DNA from: Chromohalobacter nigrandesensis
GTDB taxonomy: Bacteria; Pseudomonadota; Gammaproteobacteria; Pseudomonadales; Halomonadaceae
Length of the DNA: 64,000 nucleotides
Assembly: GCF_023061285.1 (NCBI RefSeq)
Contig: NZ_JAKGAM010000014.1
Coordinates: 1 to 64,000 of the forward strand
Reading direction: 5' to 3'
Positions 7,002-32,400 of the stretch are shown here, in pieces. The notes beneath the pieces are model-generated. The model was not told the DNA's origin, did not search any database, and saw only the letters and a list, made by a program, of their open reading frames with translations. The position numbers and the translations under genes are program-made. How positions within the stretch are numbered: position 1 is the first letter of the stretch; every line of letters starts with the position of its first letter.

Positions 7002-7078
7002 CGCCTCGCTCACTTCTTTTCCTTTCTTCCTTCCCTGGGGCGATGCCGACATCGCCCCTGCTGACGACAGGACGCCCC

Positions 7079-9118
7079 ATGTTTCCGAGTGGAAGCCAAC
7101 CCGATGCCCGGGAAGTGCGTGACTTCCCGCACCCGATCGTCGAGGAACCGGCAGTGTTCATTCCGCTGCCCGACGGTAGCCGACTCGCGGCACGAATGTG
7201 GCGACCGGCAGATGCCGAGCCCCATCCCGTGCCCACGATCATCGAGTGCATCCCGTATCGCAAGCGAGATGCCACCAGTGCCGACGATGAACGTATGCAT
7301 CCCTACTTCGCTGGCCACGGCTATGCCGCGCTGCGTATCGATCTGCGCGGCAGCGGCGACTCGGACGGCGTGCTTGAGGACGAATACCTGGCCAGCGAGC
7401 AGGACGATATCGTCGCGGCGATCGCCTGGATTGCTGAGCAACCCTGGTGCAGCGGTCGCGTGGGCATGATGGGCATTTCCTGGGGCGGCTTCAATTCACT
7501 GCAGGTGGCCTCGCGCCAACCGCCGGCACTCGGCGCAATCATCGCCGTCGGCGCCACCGTCGACCGCTATCACGACGACGTCCACTACAAGGGCGGCTGC
7601 GTGCTCAACGAGAATTTCGGTTGGGCGGCCTCGTCGCTTTCCTTCATGTCGCGGCCACCTGATCCCGTCTTGCGCGACGACTGGCGCGAACTCTGGCGGC
7701 ATCGGCTCGCCCAGCAACCCTTCGTCGCCGAGAACTGGTTCGATCACCAGACGCGCGATGCCTACTGGCGCCATGGCTCGGTGTGCGAGGACTATGCGCG
7801 CCTGACGACGCCGACGCTGGCCGTCACCGGCTGGGCCGATGCCTATGTCAATTTCGTCGCCGAGATTCTCGAGCACGCGCCTTGCCCGCGGCGCGGCATC
7901 ATCGGCCCCTGGCCGCACGCCTATCCGCACCTGGCGATGCCGGGGCCGACCATCGGCTTTCTTCAGGAAGCGCTACGCTGGTGGGATTACTGGCTGAAGG
8001 ATCGCGACACCGGCATCATGGAAGAACCGCTGTATCGCGTGTTCTGTCCGTCCTTTTCCGAGGCCGATCCGCACCGGCTCGAGGTTCCCGGCGAATGGCT
8101 CGCCGAAACCCAGTGGCCAAGTCCGCACATATCTTCACGGGTCTTGGCACTCGGCAACGGCGAACTACACGCCCCGAACGACGGCGCCGCCCGCCCCGGC
8201 GTGGTCAAACTGCGTGCGCCCGCCGACAACGGCCTGCAATGCGGCGAGTACATCCCCCACAGCAGCGGCCCCGAGATCGCCGGCGACCAGCGTGGCGACG
8301 ACGCCCACTCGCTGACCTACGACACCGATCCGCTGGATGCCGACACGCTGATTCTGGGACGCCCCACGCTAGCGCTGCGGGTCAGCGTCGACCAGCCGCG
8401 CGCCAATCTGATCGTTCGCGTGTGTGACGTCTCGCCCGAGGGCGTCTCGCAACGCGTCTCCTACGGTGTGCTCAACCTCTGCCACCGCGAAAGCCACGTC
8501 ACGCCGTCCGACGTACCATGCGATACACCGCTCGACGTGACCGTGTCACTGAACCAGACCTGCTATCGCTTCATTGCCGGGCATCGGTTGCGCGTCTCGG
8601 TGACCACCGCCTACTGGCCGCTGGTCTGGCCGAGCCCTTATCCGGTCACGCTGACCCTGCACGAAGCTGACTCGCGGCTCACCCTGCCCCAACGCACCTC
8701 GCACGAGGCGCCGCCGGTGGCGTTCGAGCCGGCGGTCTTTTCCGGCCCCATGCAGCATCGGATCAAACGTGCGGGCACGCAGTCCCGAGATGTCACCCAC
8801 TCGCTGACTGATGGCTGGACGCGGCATGCCATCATCGACGACTTCGGCGAGATCGCCTACGACCATGGCCTGACCAACATTGCCTGGGCTGACGAGCGTT
8901 ATGCTATCCATCCCGATGCGCCAGCCACCGCGACCATGAGCAAGAGCTGGCACCAGACCTTCCAGCGCGGCGATTGGCAGGTGCATACCGAGACCTGGGC
9001 AGAACTGAGCTGCGACGCCGAATGGTTCTATCTCGAAGCGCGCCTGCAAGCCTTCGAGAACGGCGAACGCTTCATCGACCGGCACTGGAAAACGCGCCGC
9101 CAGCGACGCTGGGTGTAA
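7079..9118 (+). CDS. CocE/NonD family alpha/beta hydrolase (S15-like)
   Basis: About 679 residues. The N-terminal alpha/beta-hydrolase domain has the nucleophile elbow GISWGG (Ser about 120 residues in), preceded by the oxyanion-type segment ECIPYRKRD. The C-terminal half is the jelly-roll domain found in cocaine esterase and X-Pro dipeptidyl peptidase relatives. Such enzymes cut esters, amides or acylated amino acids; the substrate cannot be read from sequence. I chose the ATG at 7079 because AGGA is 6 bases upstream; an ATG at 7043 is possible. It lies 77 bases after the orphan binding protein on the same strand, so uptake and hydrolysis of one compound is a reasonable guess. A strong terminator follows. 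Confidence 0.85.
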   Translation: MFPSGSQPDAREVRDFPHPIVEEPAVFIPLPDGSRLAARMWRPADAEPHPVPTIIECIPYRKRDATSADDERMHPYFAGHGYAALRIDLRGSGDSDGVLEDEYLASEQDDIVAAIAWIAEQPWCSGRVGMMGISWGGFNSLQVASRQPPALGAIIAVGATVDRYHDDVHYKGGCVLNENFGWAASSLSFMSRPPDPVLRDDWRELWRHRLAQQPFVAENWFDHQTRDAYWRHGSVCEDYARLTTPTLAVTGWADAYVNFVAEILEHAPCPRRGIIGPWPHAYPHLAMPGPTIGFLQEALRWWDYWLKDRDTGIMEEPLYRVFCPSFSEADPHRLEVPGEWLAETQWPSPHISSRVLALGNGELHAPNDGAARPGVVKLRAPADNGLQCGEYIPHSSGPEIAGDQRGDDAHSLTYDTDPLDADTLILGRPTLALRVSVDQPRANLIVRVCDVSPEGVSQRVSYGVLNLCHRESHVTPSDVPCDTPLDVTVSLNQTCYRFIAGHRLRVSVTTAYWPLVWPSPYPVTLTLHEADSRLTLPQRTSHEAPPVAFEPAVFSGPMQHRIKRAGTQSRDVTHSLTDGWTRHAIIDDFGEIAYDHGLTNIAWADERYAIHPDAPATATMSKSWHQTFQRGDWQVHTETWAELSCDAEWFYLEARLQAFENGERFIDRHWKTRRQRRWV

Positions 9119-9170
9119 TACCACTGGGATGCCCACTCTCTGAAACAGGATGCCACCTGTTGGCTTCAGA

Positions 9171-9199
9171 ATGCCCGAGGCAACGCCTCGGGCATTTTT
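9171..9199 (+). terminator. Rho-independent terminator after the CocE-type hydrolase
   Basis: A perfect GC-rich hairpin (ATGCCCGAGG, loop CAACG, CCTCGGGCAT) is followed by TTTTT. It separates the hydrolase from the nucleobase locus downstream. Confidence 0.9.
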
Positions 9200-9294
9200 G
9201 TACCATGCGTTAGCCCATGATGCGCCCTTCATGAACCATGGTGGTGCAAGGATCACGCGTTACGACAGCCCGCGGCCGCGTATCAAGGATCTTA

Positions 9295-9311
9295 TTGTGC
9301 ACATTGCACAG
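9295..9311 (+). promoter_or_regulatory. 17-bp dyad TTGTGCA-CAT-TGCACAG, candidate PucR-type operator
   Basis: Two 7-base half-sites, TTGTGCA and TGCACAG, are separated by 3 bases, 143 bases before the permease start. A matching dyad (TTGGGCA-ACG-TGCACAA) is at 13380-13396 upstream of the dioxygenase. Seeing the same symmetric site ahead of two transcription units of one cluster that encodes its own PucR regulator points to an operator. The link to that regulator is inference. The rest of 9200-9454 contains nothing else I can name. Confidence 0.55.
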
Positions 9312-9454
9312 CTTACTGACTCTCCGGTAAGCGAAAATCGACAACTCCCCCACCGTCGTTGCCATCTCTCCCAATAGTGGAACACCTCTTGCTTCATGAG
9401 TGGTATAGAAAGACCACCTGCCGCTATTCATGCGAACTCCCTGCGGAGCATACG

Positions 9455-10711
9455 ATGGAAAACTCGGACTACCCATTGAGCGAGGTGCCCAACAGCGAAC
9501 GTAAAGGGCTGCTCTCCACCTCGGTTGTACTGCTCGGTTTTACCTTTTTTACCGCCACCATGTGGGCGGGCGGATCACTCGGTGTCGCCTTCCCGTTCGG
9601 CGAGCTGTTGGGGGTGATTCTTATCGGCAATTTGCTGCTGGGCGCCTACGCAGCGGCCCTGGCTTATATTGCCTGTAAAAGCGGCCTCAACTCCGTGCTG
9701 ATGGGACGTTTCTGCTTTGGCGAGGTGGGCAGCAAACTGTCTGACTTCGTGCTCGGCTTTACCCAGATCGGCTGGTACGCCTGGGGCACCGCCACTATCG
9801 CCGTGGTGCTGGTAAAGACCACCGGCCTGCCGGCATCGCTCGAGACCCCGCTGATGGTACTGTTCGGCCTTGCCTTCTGCGTCACCGCGATGATCGGCTT
9901 TCGCGGACTGGATCTGCTTTCCCGCTTTGCCGTACCGGCGATGATGCTATTCATTCTGATCAGCCTCTACACCGGCATGGTGGATGTTGGAGGGCTTTCC
10001 GGCCTTGCAGGCCAGACGCCCTCCGAGAGCATGAGCCTTGCCGCCGCCATCACCGTGGTGATCGGGACCTTCATCAGCGGCGGCACTCAAGCCACCAACT
10101 GGAGCCGTTTCGCCCGCACACCTAAGATCGCCGTGATCGCGACGCTGGCCGCCTTCTTCATCGGTAACGGCCTGATGGTGCTAACCGGCGCGCTGGGGGC
10201 AATGATCTACCAGCAGGCGGACATCGTCGATGTGATGCTGGCTCAGGGCTTCGTGGTGCTTGCCGTACTGATGCTGTTCCTCAACATCTGGACCACCCAG
10301 GACAACACCATCTACAACTTTGCAGTAGCCGGCTGCAACCTGTTGCGCACCGATAAGCGCAAGGTGGTCACCGTGGCCGGTGCCGCCATCGGAACAGTGC
10401 TGGCCGTAGGAGGTATGTACAATCTGCTGATTCCGTTCCTGGTGCTGCTCGGCACCTTCATCCCACCGATCGGCGGCGTGATCATGGCGGACTTTTGGCT
10501 CAACCATAAGGGCCGGTATCCGAAGTTGGCCGACGTCAATCTACCTGCCTTCAACTGGATCGGTCTGGCCTCCTATGCGATCGCCTCCGGAGTGGCTTAC
10601 TTCTCCCCGGTACTCCCGCCGCTGGTGGGCGTCATCGCCGCAGCCTTGTGCTACGCCATCCTGCTGAAACTGTCGATTCCCCGCCCAGCGATGGACCCGA
10701 CCAAGGACTGA
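9455..10711 (+). CDS. codB: CodB-like cytosine/nucleobase permease (NCS1 family)
   Basis: About 418 residues and roughly 12 hydrophobic segments, the size and layout of E. coli CodB. It imports a nucleobase through the inner membrane with cation coupling. Recognisable parts are the N-terminal SEVPNSERKGLLS, TMWAGGSLGVAFPFGELL, and the late IWTTQDNTIYNFAVAG and IPPIGGVIMADFWL motifs, all typical of cytosine permeases. The ATG at 9455 follows GGAG. The PucR gene begins two bases after its stop, so the two are cotranscribed. Because the deaminase in this operon looks like a 5-methylcytosine enzyme, the permease may carry 5-methylcytosine as well as cytosine. Confidence 0.88.
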   Translation: MENSDYPLSEVPNSERKGLLSTSVVLLGFTFFTATMWAGGSLGVAFPFGELLGVILIGNLLLGAYAAALAYIACKSGLNSVLMGRFCFGEVGSKLSDFVLGFTQIGWYAWGTATIAVVLVKTTGLPASLETPLMVLFGLAFCVTAMIGFRGLDLLSRFAVPAMMLFILISLYTGMVDVGGLSGLAGQTPSESMSLAAAITVVIGTFISGGTQATNWSRFARTPKIAVIATLAAFFIGNGLMVLTGALGAMIYQQADIVDVMLAQGFVVLAVLMLFLNIWTTQDNTIYNFAVAGCNLLRTDKRKVVTVAGAAIGTVLAVGGMYNLLIPFLVLLGTFIPPIGGVIMADFWLNHKGRYPKLADVNLPAFNWIGLASYAIASGVAYFSPVLPPLVGVIAAALCYAILLKLSIPRPAMDPTKD

Positions 10712-10712
10712 C

Positions 10713-11966
10713 ATGGCGATAACCTGCGCCGAGATACCGCGGCTGCCCGGCCTGGAGGAAATCCGTTTCCGAGCCGGCCTGCAGGGCGGCAACCGCCCCG
10801 TTCGCTGGCCCTATGTAGCGGAGAACGACACCATCGCCCCTTGGGTGCGCGGCGGCGAGCTGGTGTTCGTCACCGGTATCAACCTGCATCGCAGCGAAGC
10901 CAACCTGAAGCAACTGGTGCACGAGGCAGTGGAAAATCAGGTTGCGGGACTGGTGATACTCACCGGCCCCGAGTATATCCATGAGATCCCCTCCGGTGTT
11001 CTGGAGCTGGCCAACTCACTGAGTTTTCCAATCCTCGAGCAGCCCTACTCGTTGAAGATGGTGCTGGTCACCGAGGTGATCAGTAACGCCATCGTTCAGG
11101 ACAATCTGCTCGGTCAGTCCATCAGACTGTTCCTGACCCGACTGATCAACGGCTTTGCCGACGCACCTGAACTCATCCATCTGCGCGCCGCCGAGCTGGG
11201 CCTGAACGATGACCGCCCTTATGCGGTAGTGGCTGTACGCCTTCCTCCCTTTCATGAGCGTCTATTCAGCGAGGATCTCGACCAGCACTGGCAACTGGTC
11301 CACCAGCGCAACCAACTGGAACAACAGTTCGGCGAGCTACTAAAGCGACGCGGCATCGACTGGCCCGTACTGGTGCTGGAGCGCGACCTGATCGCCATCT
11401 GGCCCGCAGACAAGGACCACGCCAGCGCATTGTCCGACGATCTTGACGCTGCGCTGAGCCAGCTGCAGAGCCGGATGCCGGAGCTGACGCTCTACGCCGG
11501 TGCCAGCGACCTGCAACCCGGACTCAGCCAGCTCTGCTCGGCCGTGGAGCAAGCCCGGCAGGCGGTACAGTTCGCCGTACAGCACGGTGGCCAACGGCTG
11601 TTTTTCTACGACCAGTTGGGCATTGCCCGTCTGTTTTCGGCAATCCCTCAACGCAACCTGCTGGCCCAGTTCTGCCAGCAGCAGCTAGGCAGTCTCTGCT
11701 TCGCCCGGGATGACCAGTCACTGCAGCTAAAAAACACACTGACCCAGTACCTGAATCTGTTCGGCAACCAGCAGCAGACTGCCGAAAGCCTGGGCATTCA
11801 CCGCAACACGCTACGACATCGCCTGAAACGGATCGAGCAACTGATCGGCCATCGCCTCGGTGACGCTTTCGTGCGGCTCAACCTGCAGAACGCCCTGCTG
11901 ATCGAGCAGATTCTATTTCAGCACCACAATATCGATAGCCAGCTTCCCGCGTCGGAAGATCTGTGA
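10713..11966 (+). CDS. PucR-family transcriptional regulator
   Basis: 417 residues. The N-terminus is the purine-catabolism-regulator-like domain (GNRPVRWPYVAEND, then GELVFVTGI and AGLVILTGPEYIHEIP). The C-terminal 60 residues form the PucR helix-turn-helix (LTQYLNLFGNQQQTAES, LGIHRNTLRHRLKRIEQL). Bacillus PucR controls purine catabolism; family members respond to metabolites of the pathway they govern. It is placed between the permease and the deaminase and separated by only 2 and 10 bases, so it is part of the operon it most likely controls. The candidate operators are at 9295-9311 and 13380-13396. Confidence 0.9.
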   Translation: MAITCAEIPRLPGLEEIRFRAGLQGGNRPVRWPYVAENDTIAPWVRGGELVFVTGINLHRSEANLKQLVHEAVENQVAGLVILTGPEYIHEIPSGVLELANSLSFPILEQPYSLKMVLVTEVISNAIVQDNLLGQSIRLFLTRLINGFADAPELIHLRAAELGLNDDRPYAVVAVRLPPFHERLFSEDLDQHWQLVHQRNQLEQQFGELLKRRGIDWPVLVLERDLIAIWPADKDHASALSDDLDAALSQLQSRMPELTLYAGASDLQPGLSQLCSAVEQARQAVQFAVQHGGQRLFFYDQLGIARLFSAIPQRNLLAQFCQQQLGSLCFARDDQSLQLKNTLTQYLNLFGNQQQTAESLGIHRNTLRHRLKRIEQLIGHRLGDAFVRLNLQNALLIEQILFQHHNIDSQLPASEDL

Positions 11967-11976
11967 AGAGGTCCCT

Positions 11977-13227
11977 ATGCACATAGTCAATGCCCGTCTG
12001 CGAAACACCCCCAAGCTCCACACCCTGGAGATCAGTGCTGGGCGGTTCAGCCGGATCAGCGAACAAGACGGCGTGATCGCTTGCCCCGCCGGCGCCATCG
12101 ATGCCGGCGGCAAACTGCTGTGCGCACCGCTGGTGGAGCCACACATTCACCTGGATGCGGCACTGACCGCCGGTGAACCCCACTGGAACCAGAGCGGCAC
12201 TCTGTTTGAAGGCATAGAGCGCTGGAGCGAGCGCAAGCCGATGCTGGACGAGGCCGATATCCGCCGCCGAGTGCTGGACACCATCGAGCTTCTGGTGCAG
12301 AACGGCGTGCAGCATATTCGCACCCACGCGGATATATCCGACCCCAGCCTGGTGGGCCTGAAAACCCTCTGCACCCTGCGTGACGAGCTGAAAGAGAAGA
12401 TCGATCTGCAGGTGGTCGCCTTCCCCCAGAACGGTCTGCTCTCTTTCCCCAACGGCCTGCATCTGATGGAAGAAGCACTGGAGTTCGGCGCCGATGTGGT
12501 CGGCGGCATTCCGCACTTCGAGTACACCCGCGAACTAGGCGTGGAGTCGATGAAGACGGTCATCGCGCTGGCGAAGAAGTACCACCGTCTGGTGGATGTA
12601 CACTGTGACGAGATCGACGACCCCAACTCCCGCTTTCTCGAAGTCTTGGCTTGCGAGGCGCTATTCAACGAGCTGGGCCCGCGCGTCACCGCCAGCCACA
12701 CCACGGCGATGCACTCCTACGATAACGCTTATTGCGCCAAGTTGTTCCGCCTGCTAAAGAACTCCGGCATCAACTTCATTTCCTGCCCTACGGAGAGCAT
12801 CCACCTACAGGGCAGGTTCGATACCTACCCAAAACGTCGCGGCCTGACGCGAGTCAAAGAGCTGCGCGAAGCCGGTATCAACGTCTGCTTCGCGGAGGAT
12901 TCGATCTTCGACCCCTGGTACTCTCTCGGCAACGGCAAACTGCTGCGCAGCCTGGATTTCGGCCTGCATATCTGCCAGATGATGGGCTATCACGACTTCG
13001 CCAGTGCACTCGATCTGATCACCACAAACAGCGCCCAGACCCTGAACATTCAGGACCGCTACGGCATCGAGACCGGCAAGCCCGGCAATTTCATCCTGCT
13101 CGACGGAGAAGACGACTACAGCGTACTGCGCAAGCAAGGCGACGTACTGCTCTCGGTTCGTCAAGGTGACGTCATCATGCAGCGTGAGCCGTCTCGGGTA
13201 ACCAGCGAACGCTATGTCTCGGCTTGA
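11977..13227 (+). CDS. codA: CodA-family deaminase, predicted to act on 5-methylcytosine
   Basis: 416 residues, amidohydrolase superfamily, alignable with E. coli CodA at a constant offset of five positions. Metal and catalytic residues are all there: His56 and His58 (HIHLD), Gln151, His209 and Glu212 (HCDEID), His241 (SHTTAMHSY) and Asp308. The exception is the next position: E. coli has FGHDDVFDPW, this protein FAEDSIFDPW, so CodA Asp314 is Ser309. From memory, published work identified bacterial 5-methylcytosine deaminases by loss of exactly that Asp, which in CodA blocks a 5-substituent. The product would be thymine. The pocket segment before LQGRFDTYPKRRG also differs (ISCPTESIH instead of VANPLVNIH). 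Plain cytosine deaminase remains possible. Confidence 0.85.
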   Translation: MHIVNARLRNTPKLHTLEISAGRFSRISEQDGVIACPAGAIDAGGKLLCAPLVEPHIHLDAALTAGEPHWNQSGTLFEGIERWSERKPMLDEADIRRRVLDTIELLVQNGVQHIRTHADISDPSLVGLKTLCTLRDELKEKIDLQVVAFPQNGLLSFPNGLHLMEEALEFGADVVGGIPHFEYTRELGVESMKTVIALAKKYHRLVDVHCDEIDDPNSRFLEVLACEALFNELGPRVTASHTTAMHSYDNAYCAKLFRLLKNSGINFISCPTESIHLQGRFDTYPKRRGLTRVKELREAGINVCFAEDSIFDPWYSLGNGKLLRSLDFGLHICQMMGYHDFASALDLITTNSAQTLNIQDRYGIETGKPGNFILLDGEDDYSVLRKQGDVLLSVRQGDVIMQREPSRVTSERYVSA

Positions 13228-13577
13228 CTCACACCGGGCCGGACGCACGATGTCGGCCCATTCTTGACACCCAACGCCCCGATCTCGTGCACCCACTTCT
13301 CATCGAGCATGACCGTGCTTTCCAAGCCGAGACGCGACCCGACCGAACCGGCCGAATTCTGCATGCTGCCAAGCTCTTATTGGGCAACGTGCACAATCCT
13401 ACCAGTGGCTGACTGTTCAATTCCCACTATCGACTTTTTCATTCCAGGCCTTCCCTCAATTGGCATACGCCTTGCTAAGACTTGCTAAGAGAAGTTGACA
13501 GTAATCCGACAGGCCGGACTCCAGACGAACAACGTGCACAGTCATTGGACCGACCGGAACCAAAGCAGGAATCCATA
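13228..13577. other. 350-base intergenic region before the dioxygenase
   Basis: This stretch contains the second 17-bp dyad (13380-13396) and a tandem duplication of the 10-mer CTTGCTAAGA at 13471-13490. A TTGACA at 13495-13500 could be a -35 box, but I see no good -10 at the right distance. An open frame of about 50 codons on the reverse strand (13220s-13370s) has no ribosome site and no recognised relative. Confidence 0.5.
13380..13396 (+). promoter_or_regulatory. 17-bp dyad TTGGGCA-ACG-TGCACAA, candidate PucR-type operator
   Basis: The partner of the dyad at 9295-9311: same half-site sequence (one mismatch in the left arm), same 3-base spacer. It lies 181 bases before the dioxygenase start and 152 bases after the deaminase stop, suggesting that the dioxygenase and the ABC transporter genes form a second, co-regulated transcription unit. 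Confidence 0.55.
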
Positions 13578-14618
13578 ATGACTACAGTGATCACCGGCAA
13601 CGGCCCACGCGCCGTCAACAGCAACGACCTCGACAGCCTCGTCGTCCCGTTCTCCTCCATACCGGTCATCGATTTTTCCGCCATGCACACCGATGACGTG
13701 GACGCTCGTCGGGCTGTCGGCGAAGCGGTGCGCAAGGCGTGCACCGAGGTAGGCTTTTTCTACGCCAAGGGCCACGGTGTCCCGCAGCAGGTGATCGACC
13801 GAACATTCAGCGCCGCACACCAGTTTTTCGATCTGCCGCTGGAGGAGAAACTGAAGGTCGATATTTCCAAGTCTCCCAACCTCCGCGGCTATACCGGACT
13901 ACTGGAAGAAAACACCAATGTCGAAGGCCTGGGCGATCTTCACGAGGGCTTCGATATCGCGCTGGACCTCCCGGAAGACGATCCCGACGTCATGGCCGGC
14001 AAGTTCGGTTACGGCCCTAACCAGTGGCCGAATGCTCTGCCCGGTTTCAAGGAGGCGTTGCTGGATTATCAGAGCGCAGTACTGGATTTCGGCCAGAATA
14101 TCTTTTCCGCCTTCGCGTTGGCGCTGGATCTGGAAGAGGAGTTCTTCGCGCCGCTGAGCACCAAACCGATGGCGCAGATGCGGGTACTATCTTACCCGAA
14201 CCAGGACGGCCCCATCGATGAGCACCAGATCGGCATCGGCCCACACTCCGATTACGAATGTTTCACCATCCTGTGTACCGATGACATCCCCTCACTGCAG
14301 GTACTGAACTGTGCCGGCGAGTGGATTCAGGCACCACCGATCCCCGGCGCATTCATCGTCAACGTGGGTGATCTGATGGCGCGCTGGACCAACGGCTACT
14401 TCGCCTCCACCCTGCACCGCGCCATCAATAGATCCGGCAAGCAGCGCTACTCCATCCCATTTTTCTACGGCCCCAACTCCGACGCCATGATCGAGGTCCT
14501 GCCCTCGTGCCAGAACGAGGACTGGCCCGCGCAGTTCGAACCGATCAAGGCCAGCGACTACATCCAGTCGCGCTTTAACGAAACCTATGCCCACCGCAGC
14601 GCGGACCAGCAGCCCTGA
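13578..14618 (+). CDS. 2-oxoglutarate/Fe(II) dioxygenase, isopenicillin N synthase type
   Basis: 346 residues from the ATG at 13578, which has AGGA seven bases upstream; the frame extends further 5' without a better start. The N-terminal DIOX_N domain begins IPVIDFSAM. Iron ligands are His223 and Asp225 (GPHSDYECFT) and His280 (TLHRAINR), and the 2-oxoglutarate binder is the RYSIPFF motif (Arg290, Ser292). All catalytic residues are present. Fungal thymine-7-hydroxylase belongs to this same superfamily and oxidises the methyl group of thymine. Since the deaminase next door probably makes thymine, oxidation of the thymine methyl group is the attractive reading; this is inference from context. 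It is followed 45 bases later by the binding protein of a nucleoside transporter. Confidence 0.88.
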   Translation: MTTVITGNGPRAVNSNDLDSLVVPFSSIPVIDFSAMHTDDVDARRAVGEAVRKACTEVGFFYAKGHGVPQQVIDRTFSAAHQFFDLPLEEKLKVDISKSPNLRGYTGLLEENTNVEGLGDLHEGFDIALDLPEDDPDVMAGKFGYGPNQWPNALPGFKEALLDYQSAVLDFGQNIFSAFALALDLEEEFFAPLSTKPMAQMRVLSYPNQDGPIDEHQIGIGPHSDYECFTILCTDDIPSLQVLNCAGEWIQAPPIPGAFIVNVGDLMARWTNGYFASTLHRAINRSGKQRYSIPFFYGPNSDAMIEVLPSCQNEDWPAQFEPIKASDYIQSRFNETYAHRSADQQP

Positions 14619-14663
14619 AGAACTACTGCCGTCGAGTCCGCCCCCTACCCGGAGACCCCACCG

Positions 14664-15764
14664 ATGCGTAACCCCATCTCGACCTCTGTCCTCTCCCTTG
14701 CCGCTATCGCCGGCAGCCTGCTGCTTGCCAACCCGACCCGGGCCGCGCCTTTCCAGTTGGAAGGCGACCCCAAGATCGCCTTCATCTATGCCACCACCGC
14801 CCGCGATGGCGGCTGGAACGAGGCGATAGACAATGCCCGCCAAGAGGTTGCCGATGAGCTGGGTTACCCGGTTGCCGTGGCGGAAAGTATTCCTGAAGAC
14901 GCCAGCGCCCTGAAAAACGCCATCGATCTGTATGTACAGCGCGGCTTCAACATCATTGTCGGCACCACCTATGGCTATTCCGACGGCATTGCCGACGCGG
15001 CCGAGAAATACCCGAATGTGGCCTTCGTGAACGCTTCCGGCACGACCAATTCCGATAACCTGGAAAGCTTCTACGCCCGCACTTACGAGGGCTGGTATCT
15101 GGCGGGCATCGCGGCCGGCGCCGTGGCCGACAACGACAAGCTGGGCATGCTGGCAGGTTTTCCGGTCAGCGTGGTCAACTGGGATATCAACGGCTTCGCT
15201 CGTGGCGTACAGGTAAGCAACCCGGATGCAAACGTCTCGGTGCTATACACCAACTCCTGGTGGGACCCGGTGAAGGAGGGTCAGGCCACCAAGTCGCTGC
15301 TCGAGCAGGACACGTCAGTCATTGCCAACAACCTGTCCTCCGCATCCCCCTTCACCGAAGCGGAGAAAGCGGATGCCTACAGCGTCGGTTTCCAGCTCGA
15401 CATGAGCGCGCAGGCTCCCAAGCGGCATCTCACCTCCGTAGTGTTTCACTGGGATAAGTACCTGATCCCCACCATCAAGGCAATCGCCGCAGGCACCTGG
15501 GAACCCAACCGCAACGGCGCCTTCCCCGGCATCGCTCAGGGTGTCGTGGATATCACCCCGCTGCCGGACAGCGTACCCGCCGAGGTCAAACAGATCATCG
15601 CCGACAAACGCGCCGCCATCATTGCCGGAGAGCTGACCCCGTTCGATGGGCCGCTCATCGCCCAGGACGACACCGAGAAACTCCCCAGCGGCGAATCCCT
15701 CAGCGATGAGCAGCTCTGGGCGATGGATTACCTGATTCAGGGAACGGTCGGGGGCGGCCAATGA
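14664..15764 (+). CDS. BMP-family nucleoside ABC transporter, substrate-binding protein
   Basis: 366 residues with an N-terminal signal sequence (SVLSLAAIAGSLLLA, probable cut after TRA). The Bmp/PnrA fold is recognised by KIAFIYATTARDGGWNEA, GTTYGYSDGIADAAEKYP, FVNASGT, and GWYLAGIAAG followed by VNWDINGFARG. PnrA-type proteins bind purine or pyrimidine nucleosides in the periplasm. Its stop overlaps the start of the ATPase gene by four bases (ATGA), so the four transporter genes form an operon with the dioxygenase. Confidence 0.92.
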   Translation: MRNPISTSVLSLAAIAGSLLLANPTRAAPFQLEGDPKIAFIYATTARDGGWNEAIDNARQEVADELGYPVAVAESIPEDASALKNAIDLYVQRGFNIIVGTTYGYSDGIADAAEKYPNVAFVNASGTTNSDNLESFYARTYEGWYLAGIAAGAVADNDKLGMLAGFPVSVVNWDINGFARGVQVSNPDANVSVLYTNSWWDPVKEGQATKSLLEQDTSVIANNLSSASPFTEAEKADAYSVGFQLDMSAQAPKRHLTSVVFHWDKYLIPTIKAIAAGTWEPNRNGAFPGIAQGVVDITPLPDSVPAEVKQIIADKRAAIIAGELTPFDGPLIAQDDTEKLPSGESLSDEQLWAMDYLIQGTVGGGQ

Positions 15765-17281
15765 GTCAGGGTTCCGCCCTGCTGACACTGAGCGCCATCG
15801 ACAAGAGCTTCGATGTTCACAGGGTTCTCGACTCGGTCTCCTTCGAACTTGCCAACGGCGAGGTTCACGCCCTACTCGGTGAAAACGGAGCAGGCAAGTC
15901 GACCCTGATGAATATCCTCATCGGCGTGTACAGTGCCGATGCCGGTACACTGAAACTGGAAGGCAAACTGCTGAAAATCGCCAAGCCCTCCGACAGTGCG
16001 CGCCATGGCATCGGCATGGTCCATCAGCATTTCCGCCTCGTGAACCGTTTGACGTTGACGGAAAACCTGCTGCTCGCCGCCGATGGTCACCCGTCTCTAA
16101 AAAGTCGCTCCACCGCCCGCGACACACTGCTGGCTACCGCCAGGGAGATTGGCTTTACGCTCGATCCCGATTGCCCGGTGGGCGAGCTATCCGTGGCGGA
16201 GAAGCAACGCGCCGAGATTTGCAAGGTCCTGGCACTGGGCGCACGCATCCTGATCCTGGATGAGCCCACCGCCGTGCTGACCGACTCCGAAGCCTCCTCC
16301 ATGCTCGGCGCTATCCGCCGCATGGCGGAATCGGGTCGCAGTATCATTCTGATCACCCACAAGTTGCGCGAGGTGGTCGGCTTCAGCCATCGCGTGACGA
16401 TCATGCGTCGTGGTGAAACCGTGGCTGCCGGGCTGGATACCGGCGACCTGTCCATCGAGAAGATCTCCAGCCTCATGATGGGCGCCTCCACTTCCAGCGT
16501 CAGTTCGGACAAGCCCCCTGGCAGTGTTCGGCCCCATGGGCCGGATCTTCTCGCCATCTCCCATCTGCATGCGCAACGGGATGACGGCGCCCCCGCGCTA
16601 ACCGATGTGAGCCTGCGCGTGCGCGCCGGTGAAATTCTGGGTCTGGCCGGTGTGGGCGGTAACGGCCAGCATGAACTGGTGGAAACACTCTGCGGCATCC
16701 GCTCGGCCAGCGCTGGCAGTGTCATGGTCGACGGCGCCGATGCGCTGGGGCTGTCGCCCCGACAGCGACGCAAGCAGGGCCTGCGTGTCATCCCCGCCGA
16801 CCGCATGGCGGCAGCGCTGGTCTCGGAGCTCGATATCGCCTCCAACCTGGCGCTGACCTCGGTAGTCAGCGGCCGCTTCGGGTGGCTCTGGCTCAACCGT
16901 CGCCGCATGGAGCGCGACGCCAACGCCAGTATCGAACAGCACGAGATCGCCGGTGCCCGGCCTCAGGGGCGAATGGGGCTGCTTTCCGGCGGTAACGCAC
17001 AGAAAGTCTTGCTAGCCCGGGAGATCGACAGCGGCATGAAACTGCTACTGGCTCACTCACCGACACGCGGGCTGGACATACGCGCAGCCGCAGCCGTCCA
17101 TCAGCGTCTGCGCGAGGCCGCCGCCGGCGGTGCCGCCTGCCTGCTGGTAAGCGAAGACGTGGAAGAAATCATGGCGCTGTCCGACCGCATCTGTGTCATC
17201 AGCGCCGGTAGAATCACCGGCGAATTGCCCGGGGATGCCAATGCCGCTGATATCGGGAGGCTGATACTAGGCCATGAGTAA
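15761..17281 (+). CDS. Nucleoside ABC transporter ATP-binding protein (two nucleotide-binding domains)
   Basis: 506 residues with two fused ABC domains, as in RbsA/NupA-type importers. Domain 1 has a normal Walker A (GENGAGKST), a degenerate signature (LSVAEKQRAEI) and Walker B ILILDEPTAVL. Domain 2 has a weak Walker A (GVGGNGQHE) and a good signature (LSGGNAQKVLLARE). This asymmetry is the family norm: the transporter has one productive ATP site. It overlaps the upstream binding protein by four bases and the downstream permease by eight. Confidence 0.93.
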   Translation: MSQGSALLTLSAIDKSFDVHRVLDSVSFELANGEVHALLGENGAGKSTLMNILIGVYSADAGTLKLEGKLLKIAKPSDSARHGIGMVHQHFRLVNRLTLTENLLLAADGHPSLKSRSTARDTLLATAREIGFTLDPDCPVGELSVAEKQRAEICKVLALGARILILDEPTAVLTDSEASSMLGAIRRMAESGRSIILITHKLREVVGFSHRVTIMRRGETVAAGLDTGDLSIEKISSLMMGASTSSVSSDKPPGSVRPHGPDLLAISHLHAQRDDGAPALTDVSLRVRAGEILGLAGVGGNGQHELVETLCGIRSASAGSVMVDGADALGLSPRQRRKQGLRVIPADRMAAALVSELDIASNLALTSVVSGRFGWLWLNRRRMERDANASIEQHEIAGARPQGRMGLLSGGNAQKVLLAREIDSGMKLLLAHSPTRGLDIRAAAAVHQRLREAAAGGAACLLVSEDVEEIMALSDRICVISAGRITGELPGDANAADIGRLILGHE

Positions 17282-18353
17282 CGTCAGATTGACTCTCGAG
17301 CGGCGCCAGCGAATCAGCACGCTGCGCTCGACCACCACCTATACCCTTGGTCTGCTTATTGGCCTGGCCTGCGGCCTGCTGGTACTACTTGCTGCCGGTG
17401 CGCCCGCATCGACCCTCCTGAACGACCTGGTGATCCAGGTCTTTTTCAGCGCGATGGGACTGGCACAGACCTTGACGCTGGCGGTGCCACTGATCCTGGT
17501 GGGGCTGTCCGCCACCGCCGCCATGCGCCTGCGCTTCTGGAACGTGGGGATCGAAGGACAGCTTTGGCTCGGTGCCATCGGCGCAACGCTGGTAGCCATC
17601 AATGATGTCGGCAGCGATTCCCTGCGTCTGCCCACCATGCTGATCATGTCCGCCATCGCGGGAGCGGCGTGGATCGCCGTACCACTGATATTGAAGCTGA
17701 AAGCCGGCGTGAACGAACTGGTGGTCACCCTGCTTCTATCCAACGTGGCCTACCTGCTGTTGCAGCATCTTCTCTTCGGCGCCTGGAAGGATCCGGTGAA
17801 CAGCTTTCCGGTCTCGCCCCGTTACGGCGACAACGAGCAACTCGCCAGCCTAGGGTTCGGCAACCTCCATTCGGGCATCTATATCGCCCTGGGTATCACG
17901 CTGCTGATGGCGATTCTGGTGCAGAAGAGCCGAACCGGTTTCTACATCGATGTCATCGGCCACAACCGCCCCACGGCGCTGGCCACCGGCATCCCGGTGA
18001 CCGCCACCATCACGCTGATGATCCTCCTCTCCGGCGCGCTGGCCGGACTGGCGGGCGGGTTGATCGTGACCGGCGTCGAACATCGCCTGACCCAGACCAT
18101 CGGCATCAATACCACCTTCAGCGGCATCGTGATCGCCTTCATCGCGCGCTTCAATCCGCTGGCGGTATTGCCCACGGCCATCGTGCTGGCGGGCATCTAC
18201 AACGCCGGGGGCACGCTGAAGGTGTTCTACGGCATCCCGGACGCCATCGTGGTGCTGATCCAGGGCATCGTGCTACTGACACTGCTGATGATTCAGTTCT
18301 TCCGCAGCTACCGCGTCTCACTGCTGCGTCCGTCAATAAAACAGCCCACTTGA
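17274..18353 (+). CDS. Nucleoside ABC transporter permease 1 (BPD_transp_2)
   Basis: 359 residues, about ten membrane segments, of the branched-chain/ribose-type permease family. Motifs are FWNVGIEGQLWLGAIGAT near residue 85 and GFYIDVIGHNRPTALATGIP in the cytosolic coupling region. It pairs with the next gene as the heterodimeric channel of the BMP-type importer. The start overlaps the ATPase gene by eight bases. Confidence 0.92.
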   Translation: MSNVRLTLERRQRISTLRSTTTYTLGLLIGLACGLLVLLAAGAPASTLLNDLVIQVFFSAMGLAQTLTLAVPLILVGLSATAAMRLRFWNVGIEGQLWLGAIGATLVAINDVGSDSLRLPTMLIMSAIAGAAWIAVPLILKLKAGVNELVVTLLLSNVAYLLLQHLLFGAWKDPVNSFPVSPRYGDNEQLASLGFGNLHSGIYIALGITLLMAILVQKSRTGFYIDVIGHNRPTALATGIPVTATITLMILLSGALAGLAGGLIVTGVEHRLTQTIGINTTFSGIVIAFIARFNPLAVLPTAIVLAGIYNAGGTLKVFYGIPDAIVVLIQGIVLLTLLMIQFFRSYRVSLLRPSIKQPT

Positions 18354-18368
18354 GAGCACCGAGGTCAT

Positions 18369-19295
18369 ATGGAACAGTTCATCACGAGTTGGCTGGGCAG
18401 CACACCGGCATTCGCCATCCCCCTCGCGCTGGCGAGCATGGGCCTGGTGCTCTGTGAGCGCGCCGGTGTCCTCAACATGGGCGCCGAGGGCTATATGGCG
18501 TTGGGCGCCATGACCGCCGCAGTATTGACACTGACACTGGGCAACCCGGCCATCGGCATCATCTGCGCCGTACTGGCCGGCGCGGCACTGGCCTTGTTAT
18601 TCGGCTTTGCCGTGGTGATCATGCGCTGCGAACAGATATTGGCCGGCCTGGCCACCATGGCCGTGGGACTAGGGATCGCCGGCGTGGTCGGGCGGCCTTA
18701 CGTGCACAAGAGTTTCGCAGGGCTGCAGCCGCTGGATCTACCGGTACTGGATCGGATTCCATTGATCGGCCGGCTGGTGTTCAACCAGGACATCCTGGTC
18801 TATCTCACGGTTCTGATAGGCGTCGCACTCTGGTTGCTGCTGGAGAGAACTCGTGCCGGCCTGAAAATCCGCGCCGTGGGCGAAGACCCCGCCAGTGCCG
18901 ACGTGGCAGGCGTCCAGGTGCAGGTTCAGCAGTTGGTGGCGATCACTGCCAGCGGCGCGCTATGCGGCCTGGCCGGCGCTTACCTGTCGGTGGCAAGCAG
19001 CAGCATCTGGGTGGAAAACATGGTCGCCGGGCGCGGCTGGATCGCGCTCGCACTGGTGGTATTTGCTCGATGGGATCCCCTCAAGGCCCTGGCCGGCGCT
19101 TTCCTGTTCGGCGCCATCGAGGCCCTGTTGCCACGCCTTCAGGCGATCGGCGTGCCCGCTCCGACCTACCTGATGAACATGCTGCCCTACCTGTTCACCA
19201 TCGCCGTGCTGCTGGTAGCCGCCTGGTCCGGTTCGAAAAAAGGCATGGCCCCCGCCGCACTCGGCAAACCTTATGTGCGCCAGGACCGGCATTGA
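18369..19295 (+). CDS. Nucleoside ABC transporter permease 2 (BPD_transp_2)
   Basis: 308 residues, about eight to ten membrane segments. It has the family motif RAGVLNMGAEGYMALGAM near the N-terminus and the coupling-helix segment GLKIRAVGEDPASADVAGV. It is the last gene of the transporter unit. The 104 bases to the convergent amidase gene show no clear hairpin with a T run. Confidence 0.92.
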   Translation: MEQFITSWLGSTPAFAIPLALASMGLVLCERAGVLNMGAEGYMALGAMTAAVLTLTLGNPAIGIICAVLAGAALALLFGFAVVIMRCEQILAGLATMAVGLGIAGVVGRPYVHKSFAGLQPLDLPVLDRIPLIGRLVFNQDILVYLTVLIGVALWLLLERTRAGLKIRAVGEDPASADVAGVQVQVQQLVAITASGALCGLAGAYLSVASSSIWVENMVAGRGWIALALVVFARWDPLKALAGAFLFGAIEALLPRLQAIGVPAPTYLMNMLPYLFTIAVLLVAAWSGSKKGMAPAALGKPYVRQDRH

Positions 19296-19399
19296 CGGGA
19301 AGATCAGATGCCGCTGGCCCTGTTCCAGCAGCTCGCTGCTCACCGCAGCAGACGCGCCAACGGCTACCCCATCACCGACGGCATCAACGTGGGCCGGAC

Positions 19400-20260
19400 T
19401 CAACCGCGCCGCTCGCGCTCGACCCGCTGCGCCATCAGCGAGGCCACCAATGGCGTATCGGCGTCGCGGTGGGTGGGCATCGCGAAACGCGCGGCGGCAA
19501 TCTCGTCGGTGTCGATCTCGGCGCTGACGAGCGTCTCGCCGTCCTCGGCCCGTGCCAGCACCTTGCCATCGACGCCGACGATGCAACTGCCGCCCCAGAA
19601 CCAGGCGTCGCCTTCGGCGCCGTAACGATGCGCCATGACCATCGGCGTGGCGTACATCATGGCGTAGAACTTCAGGCAGATCAGCCAATTGCCTTCGTCA
19701 TCGAAATCGCCGTCGACCATTCCCGTCGCTGCATTGACCGGGGCCAGCATCACGTCAGGCCGCTCCAGCATGGCCGCGTGGGCGAGGCCCGGATTCCAGA
19801 GATCGGCGCAGATCATCACACCACAGGTGAGGCCGTCGGCATCGGCGACGGTGAGTGCCTGCCCTTTACCGAAATGCTTGCCTTCCTCGTGCCCGCCGTA
19901 GGTGCAGAGATTGACCTTGCGATGCACGGCGACGATGCGGCCCTCGCACAGGCACGCCATGGCGTTGGCATATTCGCCGCGACCGCAGCGCTCGACGAAG
20001 CCCACCACGGTGAGCATGTCACCGGCGGCATCCGCCAGTTGGAGCAGGCGCGGGTCGTCGCGGTCCATCGCGACCTCGGGGACGCGCGTTCCCAGGTCGT
20101 AACCCGTCAGGGAAAGTTCAGGGAAAACCAGCACATCGACCTCCCGATGACGGGCTTCCTCGATGACACGATGATGCGTCTCGAAATTGCACGCGACATC
20201 CGCCAAGGCGCATTGAATCTGGGCGGCGGCTAGTCGGTAATGCGTCTTGCGAGTGCTCAA
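19400..20260 (-). CDS. Nitrilase-superfamily carbon-nitrogen hydrolase (amidase) 1
   Basis: 286 residues from a TTG start at 20260, chosen because AGGAGG stands eight bases upstream; the ATG at 20314 lacks one. The Glu-Lys-Cys triad of the nitrilase superfamily is intact: Glu in FPELSLTGYDLG, Lys in HRKVNLCTYGG, Cys in ICADLWNPG. Such enzymes hydrolyse amides, carbamoyl groups or, less often, nitriles in the cytosol. It is a paralogue of the amidase at 25556 (same motifs, similar length) and is transcribed divergently from the OpuC-type transporter. The substrate is unknown. Confidence 0.9.
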   Translation of the reverse strand: MSTRKTHYRLAAAQIQCALADVACNFETHHRVIEEARHREVDVLVFPELSLTGYDLGTRVPEVAMDRDDPRLLQLADAAGDMLTVVGFVERCGRGEYANAMACLCEGRIVAVHRKVNLCTYGGHEEGKHFGKGQALTVADADGLTCGVMICADLWNPGLAHAAMLERPDVMLAPVNAATGMVDGDFDDEGNWLICLKFYAMMYATPMVMAHRYGAEGDAWFWGGSCIVGVDGKVLARAEDGETLVSAEIDTDEIAAARFAMPTHRDADTPLVASLMAQRVERERRG

Positions 20261-20518
20261 AATGCAGGCCTCCTGCAAGGAAAAACAAAACACTGGATTA
20301 TCGCCAATGAGCATACGGCGAAGTCGATGAGTTTCCTACCGAATACCCATTGCCACTGAAAATGAATCATATGACACATCCTAATGCCCAAAACGGCGGG
20401 CACTCGCGAAGAGCGTGTTATGCTCTTTACATAATACGAACTTATAAAACTCCTTACATATAAGAAATTTCTAAGCGCTCAAACAAAACACTCGTTCGCG
20501 AATGCGAGGTCCGTGCCC
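20261..20518. promoter_or_regulatory. AT-rich divergent promoter region between amidase 1 and the OpuC-type operon
   Basis: The 258 bases are markedly AT-richer than either flank, especially 20420-20490, where TTTACA, TTATAA and TACATATAA elements stand close together. It must carry promoters for both directions. No clear operator palindrome is seen. Confidence 0.5.
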
Positions 20519-21184
20519 GTGGAATTACTGCAATACTTTCTCGATAATCTCGAGTTGCTGGGGACCCTTACCCTCGAACACATCAGTCTGGTGGGTGTTG
20601 CGGTGGGTATCGCCACACTAACCGGCGTCCCCATCGGCATTGCCATCACCAAGAACGAGCGCGTCGCCAAGAGCGTGCTGTATATCGCCTCGATCATCGT
20701 GACGATTCCCTCCATCGCGCTGTTCGGGATCATGATTCCGATCCTCTCGATCATTGGCCAAGGCATCGGTTACCTGCCGGCGGTCATCGCGGTCTTGCTC
20801 TACTCGCAGTTGCCGATCATCCGCAACACCTACACCGCCATCAACAATGTCGACCCGGCCCTGCGCGAGGCCGCGCGCGGCGTCGGCATGAGCCAGAATC
20901 AGCGCCTGCGCATGGTCGAGATTCCGCTCGCCGTGCCGGTGATCATGGCCGGTGTACGTACCGCCGTGGTGCTCAACATCGGCGTCATGGCGATCGCCGC
21001 CTATATCGGCGCCGGCGGGCTCGGCACGCTCATCAGCCGCGGTATCTCCCAGTCCGATCCGCGTCAACTGATCCTCGGCGCCGTGGCCGTCAGTGTGCTG
21101 GCGATCATCGTCGACTATGCGCTGCTGGCCCTGCAGAAACGCCTGACCCCCAAGGGCATGGAACGCGAAGCCGCTGCGACCTGA
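20519..21184 (+). CDS. Osmoprotectant-type ABC transporter permease 1 (OpuC/YehW-like)
   Basis: 221 residues with five to six membrane spans. The coupling segment of binding-protein-dependent permeases is visible (NNVDPALREAARGVGMSQNQ), as is VMAIAAYIGAGGLGTLISRG. The GTG at 20519 is preferred to the one at 20513 because GAGGT lies eight bases before it. It is the first gene of a permease-ATPase-permease-receptor operon, the OpuC arrangement used for betaine, choline or related zwitterions. Confidence 0.9.
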   Translation: MELLQYFLDNLELLGTLTLEHISLVGVAVGIATLTGVPIGIAITKNERVAKSVLYIASIIVTIPSIALFGIMIPILSIIGQGIGYLPAVIAVLLYSQLPIIRNTYTAINNVDPALREAARGVGMSQNQRLRMVEIPLAVPVIMAGVRTAVVLNIGVMAIAAYIGAGGLGTLISRGISQSDPRQLILGAVAVSVLAIIVDYALLALQKRLTPKGMEREAAAT

Positions 21185-21246
21185 GCCGTTACCCACGGCA
21201 TTCTCTGTCGACTTGCAAAGGCTGCCGACCCGACAAGGATAACTTC

Positions 21247-22428
21247 ATGATTCGACTCGACAACTTGACCAAGGTCTTCGATACGCCCAAGGGCGCAGTG
21301 ACCGCCGCCGACCACATCAGCATGGAAGTCCCCAGCGGCGAGATCTGCATCCTGCTCGGCCCCTCGGGCTGCGGCAAGACCACCACGCTGAAGATGATCA
21401 ACCGCATCGTCCGGCCGACCTCGGGCAAGGTATTCATCAATGGCGAGGACACCTCCAGCCTCGACACTCAGGATCTACGCCGCAACATCGGCTACGTGAT
21501 CCAGCAGATCGGTCTGTTCCCCAACATGACCATCGAGGAAAACATCACCGTGGTGCCCAAACTCCTGGGCTGGGACAAGGCCAAGTACCGCGAGCGTGCC
21601 CGGGAAATGATGCGCATGATCGCCATGGAGCCGGATGCCTTTCTCAAGCGCTATCCCAGCGAGCTCTCCGGCGGACAGCAACAGCGCATCGGCGTGGCGC
21701 GGGCACTGGCCGCCGACCCACCGGTGATGTTGATGGACGAGCCCTTCGGTGCCATCGACCCGATCAACCGCGCGGTGATTCAGGACGAGTTCCTGAAAAT
21801 GCAGCAGGAACTGAACAAGACCATCATGTTCGTCAGTCACGACATCGACGAGGCGATCAAAATGGGCGACCGCATCGCCATCTTTCGTGAGGGCAAGCTG
21901 GTCCAGTATTCGGAACCCGATGAGCTGCTCGCCGCGCCCAAGAACGACTTCGTCGAGTCTTTCCTCGGCGAGGACCGCGCACTGAAGCGCCTCAATCTGG
22001 TCAAGATCCGCGATCTGGCCAGCGAAGAAATCGGCCTGGTCCGCCCGGACGACACGCTGGCCACCGCCCTCCAGCGCATCGAGTCTTACGGCTACGTGAA
22101 CAGCATCGTGATGGTCAACGACAAGCGCCAGCCGGTGGGTATCATCAACGCCGCCGTAGCCCGCACCACCCATGGGCACTGCCGCGACCATTACCAAAGC
22201 GTGCCGGTGGTGGTCACCCTCGACGACGACCTGCGCAAGGTCGCCTCGCTGATGTTCGCCCATGACATGACGTGGGTGCCCTGCGTCGACGACGACGGGC
22301 GAATCGTCGGTCAGATCACCCAGCGGGCGATCACCCATCATCTGGGCTCGCGCTATCGTGCCCACTCCAAGGGCGAGGATAACGCCAAAGCCGCCGAGGC
22401 TTCTCCCTCACCGGCCATCAAGGAGTAA
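21247..22428 (+). CDS. Osmoprotectant-type ABC transporter ATPase with CBS domains
   Basis: 393 residues. Residues 1-250 form an ABC ATPase: Walker A GPSGCGKTT, signature LSGGQQQRIGVARAL, Walker B VMLMDEPFGAID and the H-loop VSHDIDEA. The remainder contains paired CBS domains, which in OpuA-type transporters sense ionic strength and switch transport on. Spacing to the next permease is three bases. This is the motor of the importer. Confidence 0.94.
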   Translation: MIRLDNLTKVFDTPKGAVTAADHISMEVPSGEICILLGPSGCGKTTTLKMINRIVRPTSGKVFINGEDTSSLDTQDLRRNIGYVIQQIGLFPNMTIEENITVVPKLLGWDKAKYRERAREMMRMIAMEPDAFLKRYPSELSGGQQQRIGVARALAADPPVMLMDEPFGAIDPINRAVIQDEFLKMQQELNKTIMFVSHDIDEAIKMGDRIAIFREGKLVQYSEPDELLAAPKNDFVESFLGEDRALKRLNLVKIRDLASEEIGLVRPDDTLATALQRIESYGYVNSIVMVNDKRQPVGIINAAVARTTHGHCRDHYQSVPVVVTLDDDLRKVASLMFAHDMTWVPCVDDDGRIVGQITQRAITHHLGSRYRAHSKGEDNAKAAEASPSPAIKE

Positions 22429-22431
22429 ACC

Positions 22432-23163: not shown

Positions 23164-23223
23164 CGACGCAGCAACATTCAGAACACACGACAAGATCCTT
23201 CACAACAAATCAGGAGTGACGCT

Positions 23224-24108: not shown

Positions 24109-24150
24109 TCGGCGCCTGAGAGGCCACGCCCCACCGTGCTAGATCACCAC

Positions 24151-24178
24151 GAAGGCCGCTCCGCGCGGCCTTCTTTTA
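24151..24178 (+). terminator. Terminator after the binding-protein gene
   Basis: A hairpin GAAGGCCGC / GCGGCCTTC is followed by a short T run. It would separate or attenuate expression of the two enzyme genes downstream from the transporter. Confidence 0.75.
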
Positions 24179-24223
24179 CGCCCCTCGTGTCTTCATCAAC
24201 CATCTGCCTTTGAGGCCACCGCC

Positions 24224-25543: not shown

Positions 25544-25555
25544 CGAGACGCCACC

Positions 25556-32399: not shown

Positions 32400-32400
32400 C

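Follow-up and report, generated by a model that had tools for sequence, protein, structure and literature searches.

Positions 9455-19295 of a 64,000-nucleotide stretch of the genome of the salt-loving Chromohalobacter nigrandesensis (contig NZ_JAKGAM010000014.1, positions 1 to 64,000; below, the window) carry eight forward-strand genes encoding a cytosine permease, a PucR-family regulator, a CodA-family deaminase, an Fe(II)/2-oxoglutarate (2OG) dioxygenase and a four-gene ATP-binding cassette (ABC) importer. This cassette is tentatively read, at somewhat under an even chance, as a two-unit regulon that would gain nitrogen from modified, most likely methylated, pyrimidine bases. Substrate, reaction and step order are inferred as follows. 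The AtzT-like importer would bring in the modified base, and CodB cytosine or 5-methylcytosine. The dioxygenase would oxidise the substituent, most likely a methyl group, giving a base that the deaminase accepts; the version favoured here is that it oxidises, and probably removes, the methyl of an imported modified pyrimidine before deamination. CodA, with Ser309, would then release the amino group of cytosine or 5-methylcytosine as ammonia, and the resulting uracil or thymine would be finished by reductive genes of the host (PreT/PreA-like, dihydropyrimidinase, aminotransferase and methylmalonate-semialdehyde dehydrogenase). PucR would sense the base and act at a palindrome shared by both units, whose -24/-12 elements suggest nitrogen control.

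Architecture, conservation and regulation of the cassette

An earlier note on this DNA had called the eight genes at the same coordinates, and NCBIfam and Pfam models uphold its calls. The set opens with a CodB-type NCS1 cytosine permease (9455..10711; NF008241, 598 bits against a cut-off of 326; Pfam Transp_cyt_pur), followed by the PucR-family regulator (10713..11966; PF07905 and PF13556) and a 5-methylcytosine-deaminase-like CodA (11977..13227; NF006685, 593.6 bits against a cut-off of 483). After an intergenic region (13228..13577, no strand assigned) come the IPNS-type dioxygenase (13578..14618; PF14226 and PF03171, DIOX_N and 2OG-FeII_Oxy), the BMP-family substrate-binding protein (14664..15764; Pfam Bmp and solved relatives), the importer ATPase with two ABC stretches (15761..17281; Pfam ABC_tran) and two permeases (17274..18353 and 18369..19295; both Pfam BPD_transp_2). 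The host genome is 3.64 Mb in size and 99.96% complete.

A scan of a genome collection for the dioxygenase yielded 11 loci. Among them, Halomonas EAR18, Marinobacterium lutimaris and M. mangrovicola preserve the eight-gene order, and Oceanobacter has a seven-gene version without codB. The cassette proteins of these four genomes are 81-96% identical to those of the window, and since the order is kept in them the gene set is not a chance juxtaposition. No description of it was found in titles or abstracts among the matches listed by a full-text search of the Creative Commons-licensed PubMed Central literature. The codBA-type module is itself already known; what appears new, among those matches, is its joining to a dioxygenase-importer pair. 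Ser-type codB-pucR-codA modules of Klebsiella and of one plasmid each from Enterobacter and Acinetobacter match the window in the content and order of these three genes, in the Ser that replaces CodA Asp314, and in the operator and -24/-12 element before codB, but they end after codA, with neither dioxygenase nor BMP importer in the stretches fetched.

Alignment of the region upstream of codB and of the 350-nt gap between codA and the dioxygenase across the cassettes revealed that both promoters share a palindrome, TGTGCA-N3-TGCACA, followed by a -24/-12 element. Before codB, the putative PucR operator has no mismatches (9296..9310, no strand assigned; pattern scan and alignment) and is followed by TGGAACACCTCTTGCT (9378..9393, forward strand; scan); in the gap, a second copy with one mismatch, TGGGCAACGTGCACA (13381..13395, no strand assigned; scan and alignment), precedes a second element, TGGCATACGCCTTGCT (13461..13476, forward strand; scan and alignment). 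The distance from operator start to element start is 82 nt at the codB promoter and 80 nt at the dioxygenase promoter. Both elements (at 9378 and 13461) have the form GG-N10-GC, which resembles a sigma-54 promoter. A GC-rich hairpin (GGGCCG...CGGCCC), spotted by eye, lies directly 3' of codA. The earlier note had described the genes as lying in one direction without interruption; the common strand holds, whereas the 350-nt gap splits codA from the dioxygenase and, because it carries promoter-like elements of its own, the cassette probably consists of two transcription units. A single eight-gene operon was rejected on account of the two promoter architectures.

Both operator copies were present at no more than one mismatch in all five cassettes, before the first gene and before the dioxygenase, and the -24/-12 element at no more than two mismatches in all but one of the 14 promoter regions tested, the exception, before the dioxygenase of locus L004, having three. 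In 480 kb of control loci (29 hand-chosen dioxygenase loci without codA) the operator had no match at one mismatch or fewer, and the -24/-12 pattern occurred 58 times per 961 strand-kb at two or fewer. Within the window, operator matches at up to two mismatches (five against 3.2 expected) are unremarkable alone and the -24/-12 pattern alone is weak (nine against 13 expected), so the weight of both elements comes from their position and conservation, not from window counts. Plain sigma-70 promoters were absent from 9100-19500 (0 against 2.3 expected from shuffles).

Of the 13 fetched codA loci that have PucR, 12 carry the operator 5' of their first gene, as against none of the 18 that lack PucR; the window is not counted, and the loci are a phylum sample plus plasmid matches picked by similarity. 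This co-occurrence suggests that PucR binds the palindrome. NtrC was rejected as its owner, the half-site order being opposite to that of the NtrC consensus and the site tracking PucR. Because the operator is shared and tracks PucR, the dioxygenase and importer appear to belong to the regulon of the deaminase, and their unit is probably controlled together with codBA, by PucR and nitrogen status.

The deaminase, the importer and the dioxygenase

The best solved relative of the deaminase is 4r7w (561 bits), which we take to be the Klebsiella 5-methylcytosine deaminase, and the next six chains (502-513 bits) are presumably E. coli CodA and its mutants. Residue 309, in a DS motif, is Ser at the position of CodA Asp314, which governs the use of 5-methylcytosine according to the parts of PMC6186785 relied on here. 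In a phylum sample, CodA was detected at E<=1e-130 in 40 of 398 genomes, that of the window included; 29 of the 39 non-window matches were read for this residue and 19 of them have Ser and 10 Asp, with Ser in all those read from family f21 (11/11) and from the window's own family (3/3). The variant CodA of the earlier note thus does carry Ser309, but the Ser type is common rather than rare, and for that reason Ser alone is no proof of 5-methylcytosine use.

The binding protein has AtzT (6pi5, 198 bits) and 3s99 (195 bits) as its nearest solved relatives. In AtzT, as described in the portions of PMC6834077 used here, Tyr45 and Trp194 hold guanine between them, Glu165, Asn218, Asn220 and Ser97 form hydrogen bonds to it, and pyrimidines are bound weakly; adenine was modelled in 3s99. 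Aligned to AtzT on the assumption that chain and paper numbering differ by 5, which fits all named residues checked, the window protein retains the aromatic clamp (Tyr45 to W51, Trp194 to W199) but differs at the guanine-reading residues (Glu165 to V170, Asn220 to S225) and has Trp at 144, 173 and 200. With the Glu165 and Asn220 equivalents lost, guanine or adenine is an unlikely ligand. The two relatives having been reported with the free bases guanine and adenine, the nucleoside importer proposed in the earlier note is probably wrong, and by analogy a free base is probably what is taken up.

Pockets were compared at W51, T102, Y103, W144, V170, N172, W173, D174, W199, W200, N223 and S225, in a table that covers the loci without the L092 binding protein. 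Eleven binding proteins (the window and 10 loci), here called type I, agree at 11 of these 12 positions, position 102 being T, S or G, and both guanine-reading residues are changed in all 11. A second type, formed by five importers beside diverged dioxygenases, keeps the Glu in all five, and a third kind has Leu (Tistrella) or Gln (L165) in its place. These types sort by dioxygenase group, so that importer pocket type and dioxygenase clade go together.

In the dioxygenase, the metal triad (H223, D225, H280) and the 2OG motif (R290/S292), with roles assigned by homology, are invariant in the alignment and common to the wider family. The closest solved relatives are 9ovh (Anc357, an ancestral ethylene-forming enzyme; 210 bits) and 6jyv (189 bits), a P. 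aeruginosa PAO1 'isopenicillin N synthase' that is presumably PA4191; with the AlphaFold2 model (mean predicted local distance difference test score 84), 6jyv and 9ovh took Foldseek ranks 1-2. We know of no nucleobase context for either. Plant flavonoid and ACC oxidases, a kinship that the earlier note had thought damaging to its idea, were rejected as nearest kin, since other solved relatives and folds rank ahead of them; the trees did not include these oxidases. The window dioxygenase belongs to a 12-row clade with support of 100 and 99 in two trees, one of 63 rows and one of 59, the bootstrap of the former not having settled and the latter lacking the long-branch L100, L104, L105, L106 and L113 and including L165; 6jyv and Anc357 fall outside the clade in a supported group of their own. 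A type-I importer neighbours 11 of the 12 clade rows (two of them near-identical Shinella), and an NCS1 permease and CodA-like deaminase the remaining one (genome G413).

The pair also occurs in other settings. Two Rhodobacteraceae, a Hyphomicrobiales plasmid and genome G945 carry dioxygenase and importer with no deaminase close by. On two Shinella plasmids a second BMP importer and a CodA-like enzyme lie next to the pair; in one of these (L047) the CodA-like enzyme has a DC motif, and an amidase is annotated between it and the second importer. The dioxygenase of G413 has no BMP protein with it and lies between the NCS1 permease and the CodA-like enzyme, which has a DS motif. In all six plasmid records that have a binding protein at E<=1e-60, four of them from Shinella, the dioxygenase is no more than 2 kb from it. 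In genome G936 (locus L165), a Ser-type codB-pucR-codA module adjoins a diverged dioxygenase (36%) and importer (42%), and a RutB-like hydrolase (109 bits, under the RutB cut-off of 378) adjoins the dioxygenase. As the L165 dioxygenase groups with that of Tistrella instead of the window's in the 59-row tree, the association between deaminase module and dioxygenase-importer pair apparently arose on two or more occasions. Both Rhodobacteraceae loci have a second dioxygenase, 39-40% identical to the window's and divergent to the clade member (L005 8833-9981 and L006 8843-9769, both reverse strand). The host itself carries a second, weakly similar dioxygenase (31%; contig C4:93740-94618), and one match of comparable strength was found in each of nine other genomes of its genus.

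Several more distant dioxygenases neighbour purine genes. An importer, an 8-oxoguanine-deaminase-like gene and a dioxygenase stand together in L051, L071 and L121, and in L072 the dioxygenase accompanies an 8-oxoguanine deaminase, the allantoinase PuuE and an OHCU decarboxylase; the deaminases of L051 and L072, the two tested, pass the NCBIfam equivalog cut-off. Some of these relatives of the window enzyme thus have both a Glu-keeping importer and an 8-oxoguanine-deaminase gene for neighbours. Weak xdh-like genes (27-33%) lie near the dioxygenase in L070 and L112, at 27-29% identity in L112, where a UacT-like permease (46%) is also present, and an adenosine-deaminase-family gene in L092. Loci L051, L071, L121, L072 and L112 may point to a purine-breakdown step by a dioxygenase that is possibly undescribed, such as 2OG-dependent hydroxylation of urate or guanine.

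Substrate and fate of the product

Reductive pyrimidine genes are present in the host: within 11 kb of contig C12, dihydropyrimidinase, PreA, methylmalonate-semialdehyde dehydrogenase and omega-aminotransferase genes all score above NCBIfam cut-offs, and a PreT-like gene in the same 11 kb was placed by position only; beta-ureidopropionase was not identified among them. A search for RutA in the host came back empty, an outcome that by itself shows nothing. The Rut and reductive (PreTA) pathways serve the same end as that proposed here, nitrogen from uracil or thymine, and to our knowledge neither contains a 2OG dioxygenase. PreA was detected in eight of nine clade hosts searched, and in 23 of 200 phylum-sample genomes (the window's included) at a stricter threshold that the eight also pass; in G413 it lies about 30 kb from the dioxygenase.

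Several observations weigh against the regulon reading. It is from the pocket and the gene context only that a methylated substrate, or even a base, is suggested. Co-occurrence of the dioxygenase with Ser-type deaminases, the check named in the earlier note, holds in the cassettes and in L165, but 18 of 19 sampled Ser-type codA loci have no dioxygenase in the stretch fetched, L165 being the exception. In the alphaproteobacterial loci L005, L006, L046 and L068 the dioxygenase and importer have no deaminase adjoining, and, because their importer pockets differ (Gln and Leu), the L165 and Tistrella pairs may carry another compound. No recognised nucleobase gene lies near 33 of the 44 non-clade dioxygenases (11 have one), several of these stretches ending at contig ends, and base metabolism is therefore not universal in the wider family. 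The enrichment of PreA is confounded by taxonomy, two families supplying 16 of the 23 background positives, and PreA was unmatched in Oceanobacter. As to the operator, four of the 13 PucR loci are cassettes, so that the 13 do not count as independent, L160 has PucR but no operator, L165 has it before codB only, and two stray copies with one mismatch (L155:3513 and L047:2650) lie off codB and dioxygenase promoters.

The earlier note had linked the locus to fungal thymine-7-hydroxylase (T7H) and to oxidation of 5-methylpyrimidines. As a full route, CodA would make thymine from 5-methylcytosine, the dioxygenase would oxidise the C5-methyl by way of 5-hydroxymethyl- and formyluracil to carboxyuracil, which a decarboxylase encoded elsewhere would turn into uracil; we consider this unlikely. 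Ser at the CodA position goes with 5-methylcytosine deamination in the sections of PMC6186785 cited above, thymine being the product expected from the chemistry, and the enzymes do share a superfamily: T7H (NcT7H, 5c3p) is also IPNS-type, scores 117 bits and, in the chains listed, reaches template modelling (TM) scores by query length of 0.76-0.80 (27-28% identity). It is not the nearest characterised relative by either sequence or fold, however, being the eighth sequence among solved relatives (the sixth distinct enzyme by title; 117 bits against 210 for the best) and first appearing at Foldseek rank 12. Residues named for T7H in the passages of PMC4787775 drawn on here include Arg190, Tyr217, Phe292 and Arg286. 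Phe292 corresponds to F296 in a printed alignment (assumed numbering offset 2), and Arg190/Leu192/Tyr194 to R202/L204/Y206, Tyr217 to Y226 and Arg286/Ser288 to R290/S292 by motif spacing only; the fragment searches aligned the C-terminal part, without the Asn87/Glu122 region. The metal, 2OG, Tyr217 and Phe292 positions appear kept, partly by motif spacing only, but the mapped positions are not specific to T7H: TropC, SpoC, 6jyv and 9ovh retain them too, differing by no more than single changes, and the Phe292/Tyr217 clamp positions are aromatic in other relatives too. Asn294 of T7H is Gly here, though N294A leaves T7H activity unaffected according to the same portions of PMC4787775.

The window dioxygenase further differs from NcT7H in having a dedicated importer and a deaminase beside it, and the pairing with the importer argues for an imported substrate rather than internally made thymine. 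The earlier note was right that the locus lacks a decarboxylase. Amidohydro_2, which we take to be the superfamily of isoorotate decarboxylase, had no match in the host genome either (it was matched, non-specifically, in the other eight of nine genomes searched), so that a complete thymine-to-uracil route is unsupported in this host; with its reductive genes, which could take thymine directly, a decarboxylation step is unnecessary. What survives of the 5-methylpyrimidine proposal is a self-contained unit that would fit pyrimidine bases, with 4r7w as best deaminase relative and an apparently shared regulon, and not the specific tie to T7H.

It is distinctly unlikely that the dioxygenase-importer unit handles an unrelated nitrogen heterocycle (vitamin-like, triazine-like, or a plant or algal metabolite) and merely shares nitrogen and PucR control with codBA. 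The four alphaproteobacterial loci would fit this, as would the LysR-type gene adjoining the Shinella pair, the 2-hydroxyatrazine also bound by AtzT (in the same portions of PMC6834077) and the inclusion in the BMP family of a putative B6 transporter model, which the window matches far under its cut-off (49.5 against 400 bits); against it, the shared operator tracks the regulator of codA, and CodA-like enzymes lie near clade members in G413 and Shinella and near the diverged pair in G936. Hydroxylation of the ring of a deaminated (oxo) base, for example of uracil or thymine to a barbiturate-type product, with relatives of a purine branch acting on guanine, xanthine or urate, is very unlikely in our view. 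The purine neighbourhoods of L072 and L112 and the RutB-like hydrolase of L165 speak for it, whereas the cassette has no recognised gene for a barbiturase or a ureidomalonase (the genome was not searched for either) and the host already has reductive genes. The regulon for methylated pyrimidines stays the preferred reading, as a tentative one.

Surroundings of the cassette and implications

On both sides the cassette is flanked by OpuC-like transporter genes, identified by eye (window 6102-9118 and 19400-26398), and its flanks also hold two CN-hydrolase genes (19400-20314, reverse strand, and 25556-26398, forward strand), a CocE-like hydrolase and an MmgE/PrpD protein. The EAR18 cassette (L002) shares the OpuC-like genes (by eye), CocE and the first CN-hydrolase, whereas the window's flank genes were unmatched around the cassettes of both Marinobacterium and Oceanobacter, bar a weak generic ABC match. 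The dioxygenase is patchy, occurring in two of 275 Halomonadaceae genomes, the window's included (E<=1e-95). Recent lateral transfer as an established fact was rejected: identity at four-fold sites resembles that of PreA of the same genome pairs (EAR18, cassette genes 74-88% against 79%; Marinobacterium, 54-67% against 55-56%), and the G+C content is ordinary (61.2%, against 62.5% before and 58.9% after).

Elsewhere in the window, a Shedu-like SduA gene (34683-35555, reverse strand; PF14082; PADLOC SduA 5.6e-58) lies near a gene for an Mrr-type domain protein (31289-33318, reverse strand; 22.4 bits, cut-off 21) and an unmatched open reading frame, possibly forming a defence island, and a HalD-type halogenase-like gene (41103-41984, reverse strand; PF23169, 67 bits) adjoins genes for an M24 peptidase and an aldehyde dehydrogenase.

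Speculatively, and as a somewhat unlikely extension, these dioxygenases would form a new bacterial 2OG family acting on free nucleobases, each with its own ABC importer and base deaminase, one branch taking modified pyrimidines (the window) and others purines. The window enzyme would then be the first bacterial enzyme to demethylate free methylated pyrimidines oxidatively, for instance an N4-methylcytosine demethylase feeding CodA; such an enzyme ahead of CodA is described as unidentified in the parts of PMC11898903 used here. The disposal of methylated free bases from DNA and RNA is poorly known in bacteria. As the cassette offers a candidate enzyme, a binding protein with a readable ligand, a regulator and a defined operator, together with named strains that carry it (Marinobacterium lutimaris DSM 22012 and M. 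mangrovicola DSM 27697), the question of demethylation is directly testable and, if the reading is true, the cassette would fill a gap in the known ways of using methylated bases that remain from DNA and RNA.

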